From Candidatus Cloacimonadota bacterium (GTDB lineage Bacteria; Cloacimonadota; Cloacimonadia; Cloacimonadales; Cloacimonadaceae): a DNA stretch of 50,103 nucleotides. Location of the stretch: positions 1 to 50,103 of the forward strand of contig JAAYWB010000033.1 of the NCBI GenBank assembly GCA_012516855.1, read 5' to 3'. Below are positions 5,781-39,256 of this stretch, one piece after another. The notes under the pieces were generated by a model. The model saw only the letters and a program-made list of their open reading frames with translations, was not told where the DNA came from and did not search any database. A program made the translations under genes and the position numbers. How positions within the stretch are numbered: position 1 is the first letter of the stretch; the number at the start of each line of letters is the position of its first letter.

Positions 5781-6506
5781 ATGCCGTCTGTTTATTATCC
5801 CGGTCTGGAAAGGCTGCAAGCAGATAGTCTTGTAAGGCTCGAAGGCGAGGAATTCCATCATTTGGCACGGGTGGCCAAACGCCGCCTAAAAGATATTTTG
5901 CTGCTTAATTCGGGCAAAGGCACTCTCGCCACCGCAAAGGTGGAAAAACTGGAGGCGCACTCGGTCCTGTTGAGGCTCACGGAGATAAAATTCCCAGAAG
6001 AGCGGAGGCATCCCTTCGCGATAGCTTTCGCCCTCCTCAGGAACCGAAACGATGAGCTGCTGGTGGAAAAATGCACCGAACTTGGCGTATCGGCTTTGGT
6101 TCCTCTCATCACGGAGCATTCGATACACCAGGCCATTGACAATACCATAACCCGTTTTGGCAGGATCAGCCTTGCCGCCGCCAAGCAATGCGACAATCCC
6201 TGGCTGCCTGAGATACGTCATCCGCAAAAGCTCGAAACCGCTTTGGAAACCATTCGCGAAGCCGGTTATACTCCCATCCTCTGCTCGGAACGCAAACCGG
6301 ATAGATGGTTGCATCATTTGACGGAGGAAGAGGTGGGACGGCCATGTTTCCTGATCGGACCGGAAGGTGGATGGAGCGAGGCGGAATTCAAGCTGATGGA
6401 GGGTTTGACAGAGATCACCTTGGGGGATCTTATCACGCGGGCGGAAACGGCTGGCATCGTGGTCGCGGCTCAGTGGCAAGCCTTTGCCAATAATCTGGAT
6501 CAATAG
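5781..6506 (+). CDS. rsmE: 16S rRNA m3U1498 methyltransferase RsmE
   Basis: RsmE is a SPOUT methyltransferase that modifies U1498 of 16S rRNA with S-adenosylmethionine. The 241-residue protein has an N-terminal PUA-like part (HHLARVAKRR near residue 30) and the C-terminal trefoil-knot signature LIGPEGGWSEAEF, followed by LGDLITRAETAG, which builds the cofactor site. It is 13 bases downstream of dnaJ; rsmE after dnaJ is a common order in several phyla. It is the last gene of the heat-shock operon. Confidence 0.93.
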   Translation: MPSVYYPGLERLQADSLVRLEGEEFHHLARVAKRRLKDILLLNSGKGTLATAKVEKLEAHSVLLRLTEIKFPEERRHPFAIAFALLRNRNDELLVEKCTELGVSALVPLITEHSIHQAIDNTITRFGRISLAAAKQCDNPWLPEIRHPQKLETALETIREAGYTPILCSERKPDRWLHHLTEEEVGRPCFLIGPEGGWSEAEFKLMEGLTEITLGDLITRAETAGIVVAAQWQAFANNLDQ

Positions 6507-6633
6507 CCCCTTGTGGGCGTTTGAAAGAGAGCCTTTGTAAGAGAAACCTATTTCATAGAGAGTAAAAGCTACTTTCCCCACAGCAATATCCTGCCAGTTG
6601 CGTCCTTAGCGCCCGAATTCACTCCCCTCTCAC

Positions 6634-6680
6634 GCCCCGCGCAAAATACTCGCATCAAATGCGGGCATCATGCGGGAGGC
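6634..6680 (-). repeat. 47-nt dispersed nested palindrome, copy 1 (reverse orientation)
   Basis: Read on the minus strand it is GCCTCCCGC-N6-CCCGCAT-N3-ATGCGAG-N6-GCGCGGGGC, an outer 9-bp and an inner 7-bp stem with two six-base internal loops. It lies in the convergent gap between rsmE and lpxK. The downstream flank on the minus strand carries the family's GGGCGCTAAGG. Confidence 0.85.
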
Positions 6681-6785
6681 GCTTCAGGGACACGGGGCAA
6701 GGCCTTCATGGCCAGACGGCATTGCTTCTTCCCGGTTACTTCTAACACCAATTAACACATTCATACCCATGGCGTTATCTATATC

Positions 6786-7853
6786 TTATAAAAGAGGAAC
6801 TTTAAGCTTTAGCAACTCCATCAATGCCTCTTCGTCCTCGCAAACGAGATCCATCCTCAATGCCAGCAGCATATCCCTCAATTCCCCGTGCCGCGCCAGT
6901 TTCGCCAGATCCTTTTCTGTGCAAAGCAGCGTTTCGGCTCCGTATTTTCTGGCCAGGCAAGCCATTCGCCTGATCTCTGCTTTGTTTGTGAAAGCGTGGT
7001 GGTCGGCAAACCGGAAGTGGTGCAGCCGGCTTAGCCCTGCTGCTTTCAGAGTTGCTTCAAACGAGTCGGGATTTGCTATTCCGCTTATCAGCAGCAGCTT
7101 TTTCCTCCTTAAACTGCAGATTTCTATCGCTTTGCTATCTGCCGTGACCACATCCCGCGGTTGCAGCCTGCAGTGGAGCAAGGGTTGGCGAAATTCAGCC
7201 CAAAAGTCACTACCAGCTTCTGTTTCGCGGTAAGGGTGTTTGTGGTTGACAACGATCAGGGAAGCGAAGTTGAGGGCAGAGAGAGGTTCGCGCAAATATC
7301 CTGCTGGCAGAACCCTTCCGTTGCCGCAGCCGGTGTCCGCGTCGAAGCAGACTACATCTAGGTCGCGGGCGATGCTGAGGTGCTGAAACGCGTCGTCCAG
7401 AAGCACCGCGTCAAGATCGGGATACTTAGCCAGCAACAGGGAAACTGCTGCCACACGGTGTTTTCCCACCACCACGGGGATGCCGGGCAGACGGCTGGCG
7501 ATGAGCAGAGCTTCGTCGCCCGCAGCTTCAACTTCATGCAGTAAGCCATCCCTGCCTGAAATCAGCGTGGGAGCGGATTTTTCCAGTCCGCCCTTATAGC
7601 CTCTGTGCGAAACTCCGACCCTGTATCCGGAAGCTTGCATAAGGGCGGCAAGATAGATGGTGAAAGGTGTTTTTCCGCTGCCTCCGCACACGATGTTACC
7701 GATGCTTATCACCTTGCAATGTGGACGCCAGGCATTGTTGGAAAGCCGCTTACGGCGCTGTGTCTGTAAAAGGGAGTTGATCCGGCCAAGGGGACTGAGA
7801 AGGTCGCTGAGCGGTGAGGGGCGTTTAAGGTGCCGGTCTGCGAAATCCGTCAA
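6786..7853 (-). CDS. lpxK: Tetraacyldisaccharide 4'-kinase LpxK
   Basis: LpxK phosphorylates the 4' position of the lipid A disaccharide at the inner membrane. The 355 residues include the typical N-terminal P-loop segment SIGNIVCGGSGKTP (about 50-63), where the family usually has SIGNITVGGTGKTP. The LDDAFQH motif corresponds to the usual DDGFQH. The start is TTG, immediately after the TGA of the response regulator, with GGAAGG just upstream. It is the last gene of an eight-gene leftward run. Together with lpxB at 47991 it shows that the organism makes lipid A. Confidence 0.92.
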   Translation of the reverse strand: MTDFADRHLKRPSPLSDLLSPLGRINSLLQTQRRKRLSNNAWRPHCKVISIGNIVCGGSGKTPFTIYLAALMQASGYRVGVSHRGYKGGLEKSAPTLISGRDGLLHEVEAAGDEALLIASRLPGIPVVVGKHRVAAVSLLLAKYPDLDAVLLDDAFQHLSIARDLDVVCFDADTGCGNGRVLPAGYLREPLSALNFASLIVVNHKHPYRETEAGSDFWAEFRQPLLHCRLQPRDVVTADSKAIEICSLRRKKLLLISGIANPDSFEATLKAAGLSRLHHFRFADHHAFTNKAEIRRMACLARKYGAETLLCTEKDLAKLARHGELRDMLLALRMDLVCEDEEALMELLKLKVPLL

Positions 7854-8234
7854 TCAACCTTCCGGTTCAAGTTTGCTTTCGATCAACGCTATCAGTTTGT
7901 CGATGTCGAACGGTTTGAACAGAATATCCTGCAGGCCGTCGGTTTTGGCCCGCACCAGCACGTGGTTGGGGTCGTAGCCGAAGCCCGTCATCATGATCAC
8001 GGGCAGGCTGGGATCGTGGTCTTTTATACGCCAGAAAAGCTCGTAGCCGTCCATGTCCGGCATGGCTATATCTGTGATAACGAGGTCAATACCGCCGCTG
8101 ATGATCTCTCTGATGGCGTTCAAACCGCTGTTGAACCCCACCACTTTCCAGGCGGGGCGGAGCGTCTCCAATTCCTGTTTCAGACCAGCGATTATGCTTT
8201 CTTCGTCATCCACTATGCATATTCTTTTGGGCAT
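7854..8234 (-). CDS. Single-domain response regulator (CheY-like)
   Basis: The 126 residues are a lone receiver domain. The conserved residues are all present: acidic pair D9/D10, phospho-acceptor D55 in ITDIAMPDMDG, switch threonine T83 and lysine K107 in LFKPF. There is no output domain, so it must act through protein contacts. GGAG lies eight bases before the ATG, inside the end of purC. No histidine kinase is encoded nearby, and its placement between purC and lpxK says nothing clear about the signal. Confidence 0.92.
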   Translation of the reverse strand: MPKRICIVDDEESIIAGLKQELETLRPAWKVVGFNSGLNAIREIISGGIDLVITDIAMPDMDGYELFWRIKDHDPSLPVIMMTGFGYDPNHVLVRAKTDGLQDILFKPFDIDKLIALIESKLEPEG

Positions 8235-8237
8235 GGA

Positions 8238-9113
8238 TCAATCTCCAACGATTAGGTCTCGGATTTGCCGGTATTTCTCAAGTGCTTTATGCACAATTTC
8301 TTCCGGCAGGCACGGCGCGGGCGGTTGTTTGTCCCAACCTGTGCTGATGAGGTAATCGCGCACGATCTGCTTATCAAAGCTGGCAGGACTATGCCCAACC
8401 TCATACAGCGAAAGGTCCCAAAAGCGCGAGGAATCAGGGGTAAGGGCTTCATCGGCGAGGATTATATCGCTGCCGAGGGCTCCGAATTCGAATTTGGTGT
8501 CGGCCAATACGATGCCTTTATCCAGCAGCTTCGCGTGTGCCCATTTGTATAGTTCGAGGGATTTTTCCTTGATGTAATCGGCAATGGCAGGATCCATGTG
8601 CTGTTTCATCTGCTCGAAGCTGATGTTCACGTCGTGGCCGGTTGAGGCCTTGGTTGATGGAGTGAAAAGCGGTTGGGCGAATTTCTGGCTTTCGCGCAAA
8701 TCTTCTTCTATGGCCATGCCGCCAATGCTGCGCGACTGCTGATATTCGCTCCAGGCAGAGCCGCTGATGTAGCCGCGCACGATGCATTCCACGGGGATGA
8801 CGCGCAGCCTTTTCACCAACATGCTGCGTCCCTCAAGATAACTCTTAAAAGGCCTCAGTTCAGGCGGATAGTCCTCGATTTTGTCGGTGATGAAATGGTT
8901 GGGAACGATGTTCGCGGTAGTTCTGAAGATGTGCGCCGCGATCTGATTGAGGATCACTCCCTTGCCGGGAAGCGGATCGGGGAAAACCACATCGAAGGCG
9001 GAAATGCGGTCGCTGGTGACGATCAGCAGTTTGTCGCCAAGGTCGTGAATATCCCGAACTTTGCCCTGATGGCTGCTAAATACAATATCCAACTCATCTA
9101 TTTGTTTGTACAT
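8238..9113 (-). CDS. purC: SAICAR synthase (phosphoribosylaminoimidazole-succinocarboxamide synthase)
   Basis: PurC joins CAIR with aspartate, using ATP, in purine synthesis. At 291 residues it is the longer form, as in yeast ADE1, not the about 240-residue form of many bacteria. Family phrases include QGKVRDIHDLGD, SDRISAFDVVF near the N-terminus, ECIVRGYISGS near the middle and LADTKFEFG before the C-terminus. AAGGAT precedes the ATG and overlaps the stop of the upstream UvrC-like gene. No other purine gene is in the window. Confidence 0.96.
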   Translation of the reverse strand: MYKQIDELDIVFSSHQGKVRDIHDLGDKLLIVTSDRISAFDVVFPDPLPGKGVILNQIAAHIFRTTANIVPNHFITDKIEDYPPELRPFKSYLEGRSMLVKRLRVIPVECIVRGYISGSAWSEYQQSRSIGGMAIEEDLRESQKFAQPLFTPSTKASTGHDVNISFEQMKQHMDPAIADYIKEKSLELYKWAHAKLLDKGIVLADTKFEFGALGSDIILADEALTPDSSRFWDLSLYEVGHSPASFDKQIVRDYLISTGWDKQPPAPCLPEEIVHKALEKYRQIRDLIVGD

Positions 9114-9116
9114 AGA

Positions 9117-10064
9117 CTATCCTTTACGATGTTTAACATGATATTCATAGAGCAATCTTGCTTCATCGGTGTCGATTAGGTTGATCGCCAGCAGCTCGTT
9201 GTCCCGATAGGAGACCGGTGCTTTGGCGAATTCGTAGCTCACCCCTTCATACAGACACCAGCTCATAAGGCCGTTCATCACACCGAATTTCTCTTCATTA
9301 TAATTCAAAGACTTGGTCACGTAAAGAAAATTGAGCCAGTCGCGGTATTGGGTCAGTTTTTCGATCTCGTCATCCAGCAGGTCCGCCTTGGCAAATTCGA
9401 GATCATCGAAATAGCGGTCGCGTTCTTTTGAGATCATCTCCAGAATGCCGTTTTGGGGATGCAGATATGTTTCGCGCAGAAGGATCTCGAGCTTTTCCAG
9501 ATCAGGTTTCTGGTCTTCGCTAAGATCCTCCGCGAAGGCCTGGCACCAGCCCTGGCAGGCGCCGCTTTCCAGCTTCTCGCAGGGATGGCTGTCAGTTTCG
9601 CAGTTGGGTAGCTTCAGGATGCGCGCGAAGCTGTCTATCACATCGGTAAGGAAAAAGCGTCCGCGCCATGGCCCCAGATATGTCCAGTCGTCATTTGTGT
9701 CCTCTTTTACGCAGACAAAGGGGAAGCGGCGGGCATCGAGGGCAAGATATACATAGTCACGGCTGGTCCGCATGGCATGCTGGAAACGGGGCTGTTGCTT
9801 GCTTAGAAAGACTTTGAAGCGGATTAGGGCGTCGATCGCCCGCGGATAGCTTTCTATCCGCAAAGTATCCGCGGCAGAGGAATTTTCCCCATAGCGGGAG
9901 TCGTTTTCCGCTTTCTGGCGGATGACCTTCAAACGCTGTGCCACATTGGGTGTGATGCCACACCACAAAGGCTCGTCGCCTTGCCGGAAGGTGTAAAAAA
10001 CCCAGCCCGAAGGCAGTTCAATGTTATTTGGACAGCGATTTTTATCCCATTTTATACTAATCAT
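9117..10064 (-). CDS. UvrC-related protein with degenerate GIY-YIG domain
   Basis: The 315 residues look like the first half of UvrC or Cho. A GIY-YIG-like fold spans about 19-95, but GIY is replaced by WVF (21-23) and YIG by WCG (34-36). No acidic residue is present between 79 and 95, where the catalytic glutamate is expected. The UvrC-type cysteine cluster C-x6-C-x7-C-x3-C is kept (C155, C162, C170, C174), and a UVR-like helical hairpin follows at about 215-250. The RNase H-like and helix-hairpin-helix parts of UvrC are absent. I infer a DNA- or UvrB-binding protein without nuclease activity. It lies upstream of purC with only three bases between. Confidence 0.6.
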   Translation of the reverse strand: MISIKWDKNRCPNNIELPSGWVFYTFRQGDEPLWCGITPNVAQRLKVIRQKAENDSRYGENSSAADTLRIESYPRAIDALIRFKVFLSKQQPRFQHAMRTSRDYVYLALDARRFPFVCVKEDTNDDWTYLGPWRGRFFLTDVIDSFARILKLPNCETDSHPCEKLESGACQGWCQAFAEDLSEDQKPDLEKLEILLRETYLHPQNGILEMISKERDRYFDDLEFAKADLLDDEIEKLTQYRDWLNFLYVTKSLNYNEEKFGVMNGLMSWCLYEGVSYEFAKAPVSYRDNELLAINLIDTDEARLLYEYHVKHRKG

Positions 10065-11614: not shown

Positions 11615-12588
11615 CCGTGCACCTCGAAAAAACTCTCCAAACGCAGCAGAGTCCTGTTATCCAGCGCTTCCGGCTGATCGCCTTCGAGAGTGAGGAAGGG
11701 CAGGTCGATGTGCTTTTTTAGCAGAATGTTGTCGATCTGCAGATGGCAAAAAGACTGGGTGTAGCTAATCACCACGTCGATGCGGCGCTGGCTGAGCTGG
11801 GGCAGGATATCCTCCAGACGCTCGAAAACGCTGTAGGGATAGGTGTAAGCGAGGTATTGGTCCACGATGTCCGGCAATAGAGATGGCATCGCGAACTGGC
11901 GCTGCACCTCATTGTAGAGCACATCCGCGCCCTGTTGAACGATGCTGTCATAGATATCACGGTATATGGGAGGCACGCCAAGATAGGCACAGCGCAGCCC
12001 GGAGGGTATGGGATCGCGGTTGGCGGCCTCGCGCAGAAAGGAATCGAGCTCTTCTTCGAAGCGATCAGGATCGCCCCAAAAATCAGACGAATTCACCAGC
12101 CAGATATGGTTTTCCTTGCCGGTCACAAGGCGTTCGCGCCAGGTCCATTCATCCAGCGTTTTAAGCTTGGCGCGGATGGCATCCAGGCGTCTTTTCACCT
12201 TCATCACCTCATCCCTGCTAACTTCGAAATGCGCTTCCAGTTTGATTATCTCGGCATCCAACGCTTCCCAGGTGCGCTCCAGCGGAAAGGAAAAATGCCA
12301 GACCGGCAATCCTGCTTCTGCCAGCATCGCGCTTAGCGAAGCGCCGTTTGAGCAATCTCCCTGCACAATGCCGACAACTTCATCAAGGTCAGCGCTGAGG
12401 GCAGCGTCGTAATTACCCTTTATCCAGGCACAGATTGTGCGCGGAAAGCCTTTCAGCTCAGCGTTGCGGACGTGCGTAGCTGAATCACCCTCCACAAATA
12501 TGTTGTTGAGGTCAACCGGAGTGTGCCCCGCCGCGAAAACCACTTCAACGGGGAATGAGGTGGTGAAGCCTATCCGCTTATTGTTCAT
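11611..12588 (-). CDS. 2-hydroxyacyl-CoA dehydratase D-component family protein (double-cubane type)
   Basis: The 325 residues match the HgdB/FldB/BcrC superfamily, which binds iron-sulfur clusters for radical dehydrations or difficult reductions. Three candidate cluster cysteines are C53 (RTICAWIKG), C79 (IVQGDCSNG) and one near residue 288 (YTQSFCHLQIDN), followed by the typical LPFLTLEGD. Only one subunit is present: no second subunit and no ATPase activator (HgdC type) is adjacent, so a dehydratase role cannot be assigned. The protein more resembles single-subunit double-cubane proteins. The start overlaps the end of the ABC-F gene by 11 bases. Confidence 0.75.
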   Translation of the reverse strand: MNNKRIGFTTSFPVEVVFAAGHTPVDLNNIFVEGDSATHVRNAELKGFPRTICAWIKGNYDAALSADLDEVVGIVQGDCSNGASLSAMLAEAGLPVWHFSFPLERTWEALDAEIIKLEAHFEVSRDEVMKVKRRLDAIRAKLKTLDEWTWRERLVTGKENHIWLVNSSDFWGDPDRFEEELDSFLREAANRDPIPSGLRCAYLGVPPIYRDIYDSIVQQGADVLYNEVQRQFAMPSLLPDIVDQYLAYTYPYSVFERLEDILPQLSQRRIDVVISYTQSFCHLQIDNILLKKHIDLPFLTLEGDQPEALDNRTLLRLESFFEVHG

Positions 12589-14488
12589 AGCTTTGCCGCA
12601 GATACTGCTCTTCCCATTCGTCTATCTGGTTTTCCAAGGTCCCGATCTCGCTTTCGAGCTCAGCCATCCGCGTTTGCAGGGTGCTAAGGCGTCCCGGTTC
12701 CGCATAAGTTTCCGAGCGCGAAAGCTCTGCGTGGATAGATTCAAGCTCGTTCTGCAGTTCTCCGAGGCGTTGCCCGCCCTGTTCAATACTCAGATGTATC
12801 TGCTCCAGATACCAGGGATTTACCTTCTTTTTGCGCTCACGGGGTGGGGGAGGGGCCTTGGTCAGTTCCGGTTCCTCGAAAGACAGCTCGATCGCTCTCT
12901 GCCAGTCGCAGTCGGGTTCCTCCACGGTAGTGTAGATTCCTTCTGGTGAGGTTTTCTTCCGGAAAACCCAGAACTTGGTGGCCAGTTGGCTGAGGAACCA
13001 GCGGTCGTGGGAAACGAAGATGATTGTACCGGAAAAGGCTTTCAGCGCTTCCAGCAGGGCGTCGGTCATGTCAATATCAAGATGGTTGGTGGGTTCGTCA
13101 AGTATCATCAGATTGGGATTTTCGTGGATCATCTGGCAGAGGTAAAGCCTGGAACGCTCGCCGCCACTAAGCACGTGAACCTTTTTATCCACATTGTCGC
13201 CGCGGAAGCCGAAGCGCGCCAGCCAGCCCAGAACATAGCCCTGCGGTGCCTGAGGCACAAGCTGCCAGATGGTTTCCATCACGGTGAGGCTGTCATCCAG
13301 CAATACCTGATGCTGGTCGTAATAGCCAATATCGAGGCTGGCACCGGTTTTGAGGCTGCCGCCCATGATCTCGTGTTCCCCGAGAAGGATGTTCAAAAGG
13401 GTGGTTTTACCGCATCCGTTTGGTCCTATAACACAGATACGATCACGGTAATGGGCTTTGAGGTCAAGCTCCCGGGCAAGCTCGAGCTCCGGCGGGATGC
13501 CGAAACAGAGGTTGGTGAGGGTGTAAACGTCATTGCCGCTACGTTTTCCGGCCGCCACGGGCAGTCGCAGTTGCTTCTGCTGGCCCGGCTTTTTCACTAT
13601 TTCCATCCGCTCAAGCATCTTTTGGCGCGAACGGGCTGAACTGGTGCGGGTTCCGGCGATGAATTTCTGGATGTAGGCTTGGGTTTCCGCGATGAACTTT
13701 TGCTGGCGCTCATACTGGCGTTCCTGGCTGAGGCAGGCGATTTCGTCAGCGGCCTTGAAAGAGCTGTAATTACCCTTGGTAATAGATATCTGGCCTTCGC
13801 GCAGGCACCAGATGCTGCTCACGGTGTTATCCAGGAACTGGCGGTCGTGTGATACGATCAGAAAGGGTTTGGCCTGCTTCAGCAGATATCTTTCCAGCCA
13901 GGCCATCATCGCCAGGTCGAGGTGGTTAGTGGGCTCGTCCAGAATAAGCAACTCGTGCTCCAGCAACAGGATGGCGGCCAGGCAGATACGGGTTTGCTCG
14001 CCGCCGCTGAAATCTCCGCAGCGCTTGTTCCAAATATCCGGCGGCAGGTTAAGCGAGGTGAGTACATATTTAAGCTCGTTTTCAAACTCGTAGCCGCCCA
14101 AGCTGGTGTAGCGCTCCACGCAAAGATTCAGCCGGGCTTCGGTCTCCGCGCTGTGGGTGGCAGCAAGTTCCCGGGAGAGGCGGTCTATCTCATCTCCCAG
14201 GGAAATCAGGTCGGCTCGGGAGGCGCGAACATGCTCCAGCAGTGTGATGTCCGGTTCGAGCTTGAAATCTTGCGGCAGCCAGGCCACGCGGCAGTTCCTG
14301 GCGCGCAAAACCTCTCCGGAACTTGGCTGCAGTAAGCCAAGAAACAAGCGGATGAGGGTCGTCTTACCGGAACCGTTGGCCCCGATCAGCCCCACCCGGC
14401 TGTTCTGCTCCAAACTGCAGTCCACCTGGTCCAGGATGTAATTGCCGCCAAACTCCAGCGACAAATCACGCGCACGGATCAAACTCAC
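12578..14488 (-). CDS. ABC-F family ATPase (Uup/YheS-like)
   Basis: ABC-F proteins have two ABC ATPase domains on one chain and no membrane part; known members act on the ribosome. Both domains are complete: Walker A GANGSGKTT and GPNGCGKTT, signatures FSGGEQTR and LSGGERSR, and Walker B ILDEPTNHLD in each. The two are joined by a basic linker (about 230-300). The C-terminal about 90 residues form a coiled coil, as in Uup. I take GTG at 14488 (636 residues), because AAAGGAA lies 12 bases upstream. A TTG at 14533 would add 15 residues but has no ribosome binding site. First gene of the leftward run. Confidence 0.9.
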   Translation of the reverse strand: MSLIRARDLSLEFGGNYILDQVDCSLEQNSRVGLIGANGSGKTTLIRLFLGLLQPSSGEVLRARNCRVAWLPQDFKLEPDITLLEHVRASRADLISLGDEIDRLSRELAATHSAETEARLNLCVERYTSLGGYEFENELKYVLTSLNLPPDIWNKRCGDFSGGEQTRICLAAILLLEHELLILDEPTNHLDLAMMAWLERYLLKQAKPFLIVSHDRQFLDNTVSSIWCLREGQISITKGNYSSFKAADEIACLSQERQYERQQKFIAETQAYIQKFIAGTRTSSARSRQKMLERMEIVKKPGQQKQLRLPVAAGKRSGNDVYTLTNLCFGIPPELELARELDLKAHYRDRICVIGPNGCGKTTLLNILLGEHEIMGGSLKTGASLDIGYYDQHQVLLDDSLTVMETIWQLVPQAPQGYVLGWLARFGFRGDNVDKKVHVLSGGERSRLYLCQMIHENPNLMILDEPTNHLDIDMTDALLEALKAFSGTIIFVSHDRWFLSQLATKFWVFRKKTSPEGIYTTVEEPDCDWQRAIELSFEEPELTKAPPPPRERKKKVNPWYLEQIHLSIEQGGQRLGELQNELESIHAELSRSETYAEPGRLSTLQTRMAELESEIGTLENQIDEWEEQYLRQSYEQ

Positions 14489-14640
14489 TGTATCTTCATC
14501 TTCCTTTCTGAAACTTGGCGCTTGCGGCTTCAATGCACACTTGCGCTAACGAATAGACCATCCTTTCCAAAGGGGCCGGGATGTCAAATACAAATTTTGC
14601 TTGTCAAAAACGGGGTATGTTTTTTTTAGGTTCCACGGTC

Positions 14641-36291: not shown

Positions 36292-38205
36292 TCAGCAGTT
36301 CAGAGGCTTCAGGAACTCCACGACCAGGATGGTGGTGTCGTCGTGGCTTTTTTGGGTGTCCGCAAACTCGCCAACGGCAGCCAGGACCGCCTGAACGGTT
36401 TCTTCAGGCGAAGAGCCTGCTTCTTTATTCAGAACCTGTTCCAGCCCGTCTGTGCCGAATAGTTTGTCATATCGGTCCACTGCTTCGGAAACGCCATCCG
36501 TGAAGACGAGGATTTTGTCACCGGGCGCAAGTTGCAGCACATCGGAAGTGATCTTGATATTGTCAAAAAATCCCAGCGCAGTGGAATGGGTGGTGGCGAA
36601 TTTGCTGAATCCGCCTGCCGCCTTAAGCTGATATATTGGTGTATGGCCGGCATTGGAAAACACGCAACTTCCGCTTTCAAGATCGATGATGCCTAGGACC
36701 ATGGTCACAAAGTCGGATTTCGGATTGTTTTCCACCAAAAAGGTGTTCAGGATGTGCAGGATATCCTCCGGCTTGTCTTTATCCGATGAAACTGTGCGCA
36801 GCAAGGTTGTCATCATGGTCATGGTCATGGCGGCGGCAACGCCTTTTCCCGCCACGTCGGCAATTGCGAAGAGAAAGTGCTTGTCGTCCTTGAGGAAATA
36901 ATCGTAGAGGTCGCCGCCAATGGCTCCGGCTGGTTCGAGGATGCCAAAGGCTTTAAGGTTGGCCGGCAACTTTGAGGCATCATCGTTTTTTGGGATAAGG
37001 TTGCGCTGGATGATCGAAGCAAAGGCAACTTCAGCCATGATGCGGTTCTTTTCCTCGGTCACTTGCTGAAGGTTGTTTATATGGCTGGTTAGCGAGCTCT
37101 TCATTTTTTCGAAGTTCTCGGCGATAACTTGGATTTCGTAAGTGTTTGAATCAATCTCCGGGCCAGACTGCAGCTCGCCTTCCCCTGCCAGTTTGATGGC
37201 ATCCACCAGTTCTGAGAGAGGTTGGTTAAGGGCACTGGTGCGGTACCAGATCGTGCCTGAAAAGATCAGGAAAGCAAGCACGAAAGCAATCGTGGTGATA
37301 ATGGAGAGAGAGTGCAAATCGGCAAAAACCTCACTGTTGGGAACCTCCACCAACAGGCTCCAATGATTGGAAGGCAGGGGCCGATAGGCTATCCAGACAT
37401 CAGGGCCAGGTTTTTCAAAACGGAAGCGCTCAAAGCCGCTTTGGCCACTCACGGCGTTTTTACATATTTGGCGCAGTTCCTGATCGCCGTAACGGTTGGC
37501 GAAATCAAACGCGGAATAGTTCATGGCCAGGGAATCCCTGGGATGGGCTACGATCATGCCGTTGCTTGCAATCATGAAGGCAAAGCCGGTTTTTTTCACC
37601 CGGATCGGCTTCACGATGCGGTGCAGGCTTTCCATCGGAGTGTCCAAACGGATAATGCCTTGATGCTTGCCTTTGATGGTGAGCGGAAGGGAGTAAGAGC
37701 ATACTCTTTCTTTGGAACCCAGGTTGTCGAACCAGGGATCGCTCCACCAAGGCCTAAGAGACAGCCAGGGTATCTGAAACCAGTCCTTGTAAAGGTAATC
37801 GTCATCTTCTGCTGGGATGCTACGAATCTGCTGGTTTTCCAAATAGAAGGTTTGGGTGCGTTTGGTGGATGGTTTGTCATAGGCCAGGCAAACCGAGATC
37901 AGCCTGGGGTTATCGATCAGCAGATGGTGGATGTGACGCTTAAGCTGTTTCGGGGTGTAGAGATCGTCGTTGATCACCGTCCTCAGTTCCTGGGCGATGG
38001 TCATGATGTTGGAGAGGTTCTTGTCGATCATCTGCGCGTTTGTCTCTGTGAGGTTGCTGATGCTTTCTTCTGCGTTGCTGCGCATCACTTTGTAGGCCAG
38101 TTGGCGGGTGATGAGAAAGGTCACCAGAAAGAGGATCAACATGAAGATGAACATGAAAGAGATGAGCTGTTGCCCCAGGTATTTGGTCTTTTTACTTGTG
38201 TTCAT
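36292..38205 (-). CDS. Membrane sensor with SpoIIE/RsbU-type PP2C phosphatase domain
   Basis: From ATG 38205 the protein has 637 residues. A membrane helix (about 12-32) is followed by a periplasmic dCache-like region with GFAFMIASNGMIVAHP, a second helix near 305-325 and a HAMP segment. The SpoIIE-type PP2C phosphatase (about 395-637) has GGDLYDYF, IADVAGKGVAAAM, FSNAGHTP, FTDGVSEA and DDTTILVV. Such proteins usually dephosphorylate anti-sigma-factor antagonists. No partner kinase or antagonist is near. The start overlaps the NMT1-like gene by 14 bases; a GTG at 38250 is the alternative. No clear ribosome site is seen. Confidence 0.88.
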   Translation of the reverse strand: MNTSKKTKYLGQQLISFMFIFMLILFLVTFLITRQLAYKVMRSNAEESISNLTETNAQMIDKNLSNIMTIAQELRTVINDDLYTPKQLKRHIHHLLIDNPRLISVCLAYDKPSTKRTQTFYLENQQIRSIPAEDDDYLYKDWFQIPWLSLRPWWSDPWFDNLGSKERVCSYSLPLTIKGKHQGIIRLDTPMESLHRIVKPIRVKKTGFAFMIASNGMIVAHPRDSLAMNYSAFDFANRYGDQELRQICKNAVSGQSGFERFRFEKPGPDVWIAYRPLPSNHWSLLVEVPNSEVFADLHSLSIITTIAFVLAFLIFSGTIWYRTSALNQPLSELVDAIKLAGEGELQSGPEIDSNTYEIQVIAENFEKMKSSLTSHINNLQQVTEEKNRIMAEVAFASIIQRNLIPKNDDASKLPANLKAFGILEPAGAIGGDLYDYFLKDDKHFLFAIADVAGKGVAAAMTMTMMTTLLRTVSSDKDKPEDILHILNTFLVENNPKSDFVTMVLGIIDLESGSCVFSNAGHTPIYQLKAAGGFSKFATTHSTALGFFDNIKITSDVLQLAPGDKILVFTDGVSEAVDRYDKLFGTDGLEQVLNKEAGSSPEETVQAVLAAVGEFADTQKSHDDTTILVVEFLKPLNC

Positions 38206-39256
38206 GGGGGTAGAAGGTCTGGTAATCAACAGGTTTGTCGATGATGCCACGCTCTATCAGGATGCGATTGGCAAGATCAAAATCTTTGGGATCGAGATAA
38301 CCAACGCGGGCGGGATTTTCCAGAATACGGGACTTTATATGTTCCAGCATCCAGGCCTGATGCTCAAGGTTTGCCGGTTGATGGTTTTCCCTCAGGTAAC
38401 GTAGCACCACAGCCAGGGTTTCCTCAGGATTCTGGAAGGCATAGTTCCAGCCCTCAAGGGTGGCGGCTGTGAAATCCCGGCACTGCCGGGGGTGTTTTTC
38501 AAAAAAGTCCCTGGTAGTGTAGATTCCATCGTCAACAAGGTCAAAGCCATAATCCGCAAGGTCAAAGACCACCAGGTCTTCTTCATCCAAACCGGTCATG
38601 AGCAGACGGTGATACTCATTGTAGTACATGGCGTTGATCATATCCACGGCATTTTCCAGCAGCAGGTTGACAGACCAGTCCATGGGTATCGCTCTTATGT
38701 TCAGGCCCAGGCTTTCCAGAAAGAAAAGGGTGTGGTCGCCACCTTCTTCTCGCCAGACGCCAATCTTTTTCCCATCAAGATCTTGTATGGTTTTGATTCC
38801 GGAACTCTTTTTCCCCACCAACACCGTGGAATTTTTCTGCGATATCTGAGCCATTAAAACAGCGGGATTTTTGGGATTATGATACTTGAGAGCGGTGACC
38901 AGGTTAAAGCTGGCTATGTCGGCGGAACCTTCCATAAGCGATTGGTAAGGTGGATGATCTCCTCCTCCGGGCAGGAACTCGACATCCAAGCCCCGTGCCT
39001 GATAGAAGCCTTTTTCCTTGGCCATGTAAGCTCCGGCGAATTGGGCCTGGTGCAGCCATTTCAGCCGGTAACGCAATTTGAAAAGCTCTCTGGGTTGAAC
39101 TTCCTCCATACTGGGTCTGTTTTTCTTGCTTCTGCCAGAATCAATGCACTTGTCCCCGCAACTGGACAATACAAACAGCATTAGAACCACGATCAGCCTG
39201 ACCGCGTGACGTATGCCACGATGTTGAGGAAGTTTGGGTTGAAGCAATGGGTTCAT
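38192..39256 (-). CDS. NMT1/THI5-like periplasmic solute-binding lipoprotein
   Basis: The 354 residues start with a basic leader and hydrophobic core ending in a lipobox (LFVLSSC, cysteine about 33). The mature part matches the NMT1/THI5-like substrate-binding fold: LKWLHQAQFAGAYMAKEKGFY, FLPGGGDHPPYQSLMEG and the GKKIGVWREEGGD segment. Relatives bind pyrimidine precursors of thiamine, or nitrate, taurine and similar ligands. No ABC permease or ATPase gene is adjacent. Its gene overlaps the phosphatase gene, so it may be the ligand-binding partner of that sensor and not a transporter part. Confidence 0.82.
   Translation of the reverse strand: MNPLLQPKLPQHRGIRHAVRLIVVLMLFVLSSCGDKCIDSGRSKKNRPSMEEVQPRELFKLRYRLKWLHQAQFAGAYMAKEKGFYQARGLDVEFLPGGGDHPPYQSLMEGSADIASFNLVTALKYHNPKNPAVLMAQISQKNSTVLVGKKSSGIKTIQDLDGKKIGVWREEGGDHTLFFLESLGLNIRAIPMDWSVNLLLENAVDMINAMYYNEYHRLLMTGLDEEDLVVFDLADYGFDLVDDGIYTTRDFFEKHPRQCRDFTAATLEGWNYAFQNPEETLAVVLRYLRENHQPANLEHQAWMLEHIKSRILENPARVGYLDPKDFDLANRILIERGIIDKPVDYQTFYPHEHK

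Follow-up and report, generated by a model that had tools for sequence, protein, structure and literature searches.

On its minus strand, the 50,103-nucleotide contig JAAYWB010000033.1 of Candidatus Cloacimonadota bacterium (assembly GCA_012516855.1), all of which was analyzed and is called the window hereafter, carries two overlapping genes, one for a solute-binding lipoprotein of the NMT1 family and the other, directly downstream, for a membrane phosphatase with its own periplasmic sensor domain (Table 1). Both open reading frames (ORFs) are present as the initial annotation of this DNA had claimed, including their overlap of 14 bases, which is obtained only from the phosphatase start candidate ATG at 38205 and not from the GTG at 38250; in a close relative (L007) the pair likewise overlaps by 14. 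With the Pfam profiles, the binding protein scored 128.5 bits for NMT1 (cut-off 20.5) and the phosphatase 162.7 bits for SpoIIE (PF07228; cut-off 25) and 51 bits for dCache_1 (cut-off 45), whereas HAMP (PF00672) stayed under its threshold (13.7 vs 25 bits). Of the dCache-HAMP-SpoIIE architecture first put forward, the sensor and phosphatase parts hold and the HAMP part is weak in this protein, HAMP being above the cut-off in the relatives L115, L133, and L052. The SpoIIE domain is the single match in its genome (2.25 Mb, 98.8% complete) and aligns with the PP2C motifs GGDLYD, DVAGKG, NAGH, TDG, and DDT, among which GGDLYD, DVAGKG, TDG, and DD presumably have roles at the metal site. The structure model of the phosphatase (mean predicted local distance difference test score, pLDDT, 83.4; predicted template modeling score, pTM, 0.51) matches the dCache domain 3lib and the PP2C domains of SiaA (6k4e) and RssB (3f79), in lists of matches from which, for either protein, a missing family is not thereby ruled out.

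Table 1. Coordinates of the paired genes and of their parts in the window
Feature	Position	Strand	Basis
NMT1-family solute-binding lipoprotein, 354 aa	38192..39256	minus	ORF; PF09084; AlphaFold2 model; closest folds 3ix1, 4nmy
Signal peptide with lipobox LSSC, Cys33 predicted lipidated	39158..39256	minus	Read from translation
NMT1 domain, aa 71-279	38420..39046	minus	Pfam
dCache-SpoIIE membrane phosphatase, 637 aa	36292..38205	minus	ORF and domains
Periplasmic dCache sensor domain, aa 41-286	37348..38085	minus	PF02743; fold match 3lib and other dCache domains
HAMP-like linker, weak, aa 325-372	37090..37233	minus	13.7 bits, under cut-off
SpoIIE/PP2C phosphatase domain	36313..36888	minus	Pfam; motifs; folds 6k4e, 3f79
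14-base overlap of binding-protein and phosphatase genes	38192..38205	minus	ORFs; overlaps recur in relatives

The association of the two genes is beyond chance. Among 106 genomes of the order, 49 hold an orthologue of the phosphatase (best match at E<1e-60), and in 44 of these 49 the binding-protein gene is adjacent, upstream, and on the same strand, counting two pairs from broken or contig-end pieces (G020, G029) and two with one TGA inside a match, that of the phosphatase in G012 and that of the binding protein in G001. Four more contigs end at the position of the binding protein (G002, G030, G047, G070), and the pair, whose loss in relatives the initial annotation had set as its own refutation, is missing in just one of the 45 genomes that can be resolved. 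The flanking genes vary among genera while the pair stays, with neighbors that we read as CTP synthase, MeaB, CoaE, and alanine racemase. The two ORFs overlap in all 43 genomes of the order that were measured, a figure taken from the longest ORFs, and this procedure favors overlaps, as does the use, in the wider set of loci described below, of the start codon nearest the stop of the binding-protein gene. A lipid anchor cannot be taken as a defining feature of the binding protein, because a simple lipobox-like pattern occurs in only 29 of 45 sequences from the order (which include L045 and count G001 twice) and 24 of 79 of the wider set.

Beyond the order, 84,980 species genomes were scanned with an alignment of the binding protein only (A1), and the best 80 of at least 580 confirmed relatives are referred to here as the 80 wider loci; two patterns of the scan (of the QxQFAG and YNEY types) partly build those motifs into this set, in which SpoIIE, dCache, HATPase, and STAS were assigned by home-built profiles, checked against Pfam in L115 and L133. 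A dCache-SpoIIE gene lies directly downstream on the same strand in 67 of the 80, or in 63 of 76 outside Cloacimonadota once L108, L150, L159, and L171, apparently repeats of genomes of the order, are set apart. Another five have a dCache gene there, two being cut by the contig end and three lacking a detected SpoIIE domain (L115, L162, L179); the ORFs of L162 and L179 are short, and that of L115, where the pair lies at 6004-9142, encodes, according to Pfam, a dCache-HAMP-adenylate cyclase in place of the phosphatase. Two of the remaining loci meet a contig edge and six have other neighbors, namely a HAMP-GAF receptor in L158, L161 (both assigned with Pfam), and L163 and a HAMP-PAS kinase-type protein with a receiver in L167 and L178, L160 resembling L158 by its layout. 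The records of L158, L160, and L161 are titled Chloroflexi, Anaerolineae, and Phycisphaerae, and in L158 the receptor is followed by a Cache_3-Cache_2-HAMP-GAF protein; these three loci possibly represent another receptor system built on the same fold.

By record titles, the 67 wider pairs span about 12 phylum labels, among them Planctomycetota, Omnitrophica, Deltaproteobacteria, Lentisphaerae, Elusimicrobia, KSB1, Bacteroidota with Chlorobi, Neomarinimicrobiota, Synergistaceae, and Proteobacteria, and single assignments may be wrong because many of the records are metagenome-assembled genomes. Others carry the names of cultured species, namely Rhodopseudomonas palustris (L133, with the binding-protein homologue at 6004-6993), Azonexus hydrophilus (L134), and Trichlorobacter thiogenes (L135). 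The distance between the two genes is negative in 50 of the 67, being -14 in 14 of these, and at most 106. For 61 of these pairs (complete ORFs, binding protein <420 aa), tree distances of the binding protein correlate with those of the dCache domain at r=0.90, a value reached by none of 2000 permutations, and with those of SpoIIE at r=0.85, while dCache and SpoIIE, two parts of one chain, correlate at 0.84, below the binding protein with dCache; the partial correlations in this three-way comparison were 0.66 and 0.39.

The AlphaFold2 model of the binding protein (mean pLDDT 91.5) has as its best structure matches 3ix1 (Z 32.4, root-mean-square deviation, rmsd, 3.0, 294 residues aligned), a ThiY protein that binds formylaminopyrimidine (FAMP), and the thiamin-bound 4nmy (Z 30.4, rmsd 3.0, 288 aligned), with an identity to the window protein of 19-20% over the fold. 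The thiamin-type loop WxPNxxH, which we take to contact the ligand in ThiY-type proteins, is found in the alignment of 4nmy, as WYPNAVH in 3ix1, and in a ThiY-like protein of the same genome (contig C25), but the window protein has WLHQAQFAG where the ThiY-like loop reads WTPNTNHxG. Two alignments were built with the window protein, A3 with 60 and A4 with 44 of the 80 wider loci, and the W, Q, Q, F, A, and G of the general form WxxQxQFAG are invariant in all 61 sequences of A3, which is partly built in by the search pattern. The order set was obtained by searching with the whole protein, and of its 43 paired proteins, 41 contain WxxQx[QE]FAG, 36 contain YNEY, and 40 contain the [ED]xG motif. 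The pattern [ED][DENG]G[ILMVYF][YF], present in the window protein as DDGIY, is shared by 65 of the 72 binding proteins encoded beside dCache genes in the wider set, none of which has GDxLF, vs 6/6 of those beside other receptors.

A thiamine precursor, the ligand suggested by the initial annotation, is weakened as a candidate by the replaced loop, by the separate ThiY-like protein in the genome, and by the absence from the window of any riboswitch at Rfam thresholds. That the NMT1/THI5-like label can mislead is also stated in an earlier paper (PMC7373994). The ligand is probably not a thiamine precursor.

As for the output of the phosphatase, its link to partner switching, already suspected by the initial annotation, is supported by the clustering of HATPase_c_2 and STAS genes with it in relatives. 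In one family of the order (f10), switch genes come after the pair, namely HATPase_c_2 (RsbW-like) and STAS, both confirmed with Pfam, in L046, L049, L050, and L051, a HATPase gene and then the contig end in L047, and a gene for a HATPase-STAS protein farther along in L054, the contig of L048 ending before any switch gene. A HATPase and/or STAS gene lies on the same strand within 3.5 kb in 35 of the 67 wider pairs, as two separate genes in 23, as STAS together with a phosphatase-HATPase fusion in eight, as STAS only in three, and as HATPase only in one. In R. palustris JSC-3b, genes for STAS, HATPase_c_2, NMT1, and dCache-HAMP-SpoIIE proteins are consecutive (Pfam-confirmed). Genes of the GPP34 (GOLPH3-like) family adjoin some of these clusters, as identified by Pfam in L049 (45-641) and by sequence likeness in L052 (6576-7220) and L048 (1229-1906). 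In some clusters of f10 a metallo-beta-lactamase-fold gene is found beside or near the binding-protein gene, as Lactamase_B_2 in L047 (1421-2386) and by likeness only in L046 (5850-6845) and L051 (1524-1799, a short ORF), with a similar ORF in L111.

The window itself is different in this respect. Profiles for STAS, HATPase_c_2, and the BPD_transp_1 permease gave no match on its contig, and all matches in the genome lie on other contigs, in agreement with the earlier remark that no anti-sigma genes are near. The search for orphan STAS and anti-sigma proteins advised there returned one stand-alone STAS protein, on contig C68, beside a protein with receiver and HATPase domains; it carries the motif ISSTG, the Ser of which we take to be the residue expected to be phosphorylated. 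Among genomes with the phosphatase orthologue, the same type of receiver-HATPase protein (E<1e-15) occurs in 40 of 42 of family f1 and in none of seven of f10, six of which show a HATPase in or near the pair cluster, the contig of the seventh (G069) ending before any HATPase. Two other matches were discarded, that of STAS on C71 belonging to an MlaE permease (239 bits) whose STAS part is weak, and that of HATPase on C60 falling short of the cut-off (22.6 vs 27.4 bits) within what we read as a hydrogenase-related cluster. Two sigma factors with region 3 were found in the genome, one RpoD-like and the other a 291-aa RpoD/RpoS-like protein, and a factor of the SigB/SigF type was not identified between them, extracytoplasmic function (ECF) factors not having been searched. 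At L187:24-1986, the gene of the 291-aa protein directly follows a LysM-peptidase gene, an order that recalls nlpD-rpoS of E. coli.

Taken together, the gene pairing, the domains, the fold models, the co-divergence, and the switch genes linked in relatives point to a split receptor, a reading to which we give a probability of roughly two in three. The NMT1-family protein, lipid-anchored in this bacterium, would catch a small ligand and, once loaded, dock on the dCache domain that the phosphatase exposes in the periplasm, from which the HAMP-like linker would pass the change to the cytoplasmic PP2C domain and set its activity. The PP2C domain, in turn, would have a phosphorylated STAS protein as its substrate and would thereby shift a partner switch shared with an RsbW-like kinase. 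In the genome of the window, the partners in trans are likely to be the STAS protein of C68 and the adjoining receiver-HATPase protein, and in related families these roles would fall to the kinase and STAS protein encoded in the same cluster as the pair. Docking, the ligand, the direction of control, the dephosphorylation of a STAS substrate, and the final target are envisaged rather than observed.

Several observations weigh against this proposal. One genome of the order (G025; L040:2044-5724) has the phosphatase with a CTP-synthase-like gene, and no binding protein, directly upstream, and L052 contains a dCache-HAMP-SpoIIE paralogue that lacks a binding protein but is accompanied by HATPase and STAS genes. 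Neither a HATPase nor a STAS gene is found on the strand within 3.5 kb in 32 of the 67 wider pairs, some of whose flanks are short. In a tree of binding proteins made from 25 hand-picked loci of the wider 80 and 21 other sequences, the six GDxLF proteins form one clade and are therefore not independent, so the motif split is confounded by shared ancestry, and the distance correlations are likewise confounded by shared descent. With regard to C68, the receiver-HATPase protein is kept by six of seven f1 genomes that have no phosphatase orthologue, which rejects an exclusive partnership and leaves the link as plausible; moreover, the copy in the genome of the window (L036:7862-8785, following the STAS gene) is interrupted by an in-frame stop that may be a real mutation or an assembly error, the copies of relatives being intact. 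Finally, the phosphatase bears its own sensor domain, which, together with the paralogue of L052, marks the binding protein as an add-on.

This last point leads to another explanation, that dCache lets the phosphatase sense a ligand directly while the binding protein concentrates, buffers, or sequesters that ligand in the periplasm, with no contact between the two. dCache domains often bind ligands directly, and both the paralogue of L052 and the orthologue of G025 show that such phosphatases exist alone; the latter is also a natural test of whether the phosphatase can work by itself. However, L041-L044 encode fusions of NMT1 domains of the same kind with histidine-kinase domains (L044 is cut by the contig end) and a protein of this kind adjoins a hybrid histidine kinase in L045, suggesting that direct signal input is possible, and the motif split by receptor type and the tight co-divergence with dCache also speak against this explanation, which we regard as unlikely.

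A role of the binding protein in import, with a permease encoded elsewhere and an incidental co-transcription with the phosphatase, appears improbable. The family does include transport proteins, and a Tau/Thi-like permease on contig C29 and the ABC (ATP-binding cassette) ATPase on C25, both named from our own reading, could in principle be shared. Nevertheless, that ATPase gene stands beside the ThiY-like gene of C25, whose product is 24% identical to the window binding protein, and this importer thus has a binding protein of its own. A pattern search for ABC ATPases found one candidate ORF inside the window, at a distance of about 24 kb (12578-14533, minus strand, 651 aa), and others in the flanks of eight of the 80 wider loci, none less than 1.4 kb from the binding-protein gene; together with the permease profile, which was run on the contig, this revealed no linked ABC transporter at the window locus or at the 80 wider loci. 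The initial annotation had described the lipoprotein as lacking an ABC permease and ATPase, which agrees with these results, and had named its use by a transporter in relatives as grounds for refutation, of which gene linkage gave no case. Since the pairing with the phosphatase recurs under about 12 phylum labels, incidental co-transcription is unlikely. That the lipoprotein belongs with a sensor, as was originally proposed, and not with a transporter is well supported by the conservation of the pair and by the histidine-kinase fusions. The complete model of the initial annotation, with a thiamine precursor as the ligand and a partner-switching sigma factor as the output, is very doubtful, because, even with ThiY and a thiamin-bound protein as the closest solved structures, the identity over the fold is low as given above, the loop motif is replaced, no riboswitch was detected at Rfam thresholds, and the region-3 sigma factors found, ECF factors not having been searched, are only RpoD/RpoS-like.

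On a broader scale, the split receptor may belong to an old and widespread class, apparently undescribed, in which an NMT1-fold protein with WxxQxQFAG, YNEY, and [ED]DGxY works with dCache receptors and drives partner switching through PP2C (an adenylate cyclase in one locus) in about 12 phyla, with one ligand or ligand class in common; we advance this tentatively, at slightly less than even odds. Judged by titles and the openings of abstracts, in a literature whose subscription journals were incompletely covered, none of the papers listed by searches aimed at the pair or at sensors of the NMT1 type describes the pair, and, as far as could be seen, known parts (sensing coupled to a binding protein, and partner switching) occur here in a widespread but undescribed combination. 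Little is known in general of the signals that membrane PP2C phosphatases receive in partner switching, and a dedicated binding protein offers a soluble handle for ligand discovery through routine screening, while the pairs in records of cultured species make the model directly testable. It is also suggested that the NMT1/THI5 label hides a signaling branch, whose members annotation may call transporter parts.

Among known systems, the closest to the binding protein by sequence and structure is the ThiY/THI5 family (3ix1, 4nmy, 4esx), which shares its fold but differs in the binding-loop motif and in the linked permease, not seen here. The phosphatase resembles SiaA of the SiaABCD system of Pseudomonas aeruginosa, which unites in a single membrane protein a periplasmic sensor with HAMP and PP2C and acts on a STAS-like protein, and the PP2C fold match 6k4e reflects this likeness; unlike the window pair, the SiaA system has no binding protein that we know of, and with the SiaA equivalog model NF038263 the window phosphatase scored 65.5 bits, under the cut-off of 700. 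RsbU/RsbV/RsbW and SpoIIE/SpoIIAA/SpoIIAB are partner-switching systems with which the relatives of the pair have in common a SpoIIE phosphatase and linked HATPase_c_2 kinase and STAS proteins, the differences being the added binding protein and the lack of an identified SigB/SigF-type sigma factor. LuxP-LuxQ and TorT-TorS couple a binding protein to a sensor domain in the periplasm, as we propose for the window pair, and the periplasmic part of LuxQ is a tandem PDC/dCache-like region, although both systems use another fold class of binding protein and have a histidine kinase as output. The fold of AioX (6esv) is itself among the structure matches of the window protein (Z 16.2, rmsd 3.8, 234 aligned). 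In a source that also names LuxP and TorT, AioX-AioS-AioR is a system whose periplasmic binding protein is dedicated to signaling and encoded directly with its sensor kinase, so that, like the window pair, it joins a dedicated binding protein and a sensor in one locus (PMC5908839). According to the same source, AioX is a PhnD-like protein that binds arsenite and AioS is a histidine kinase, whereas the sensor of the window is a dCache-PP2C phosphatase (PMC5908839).

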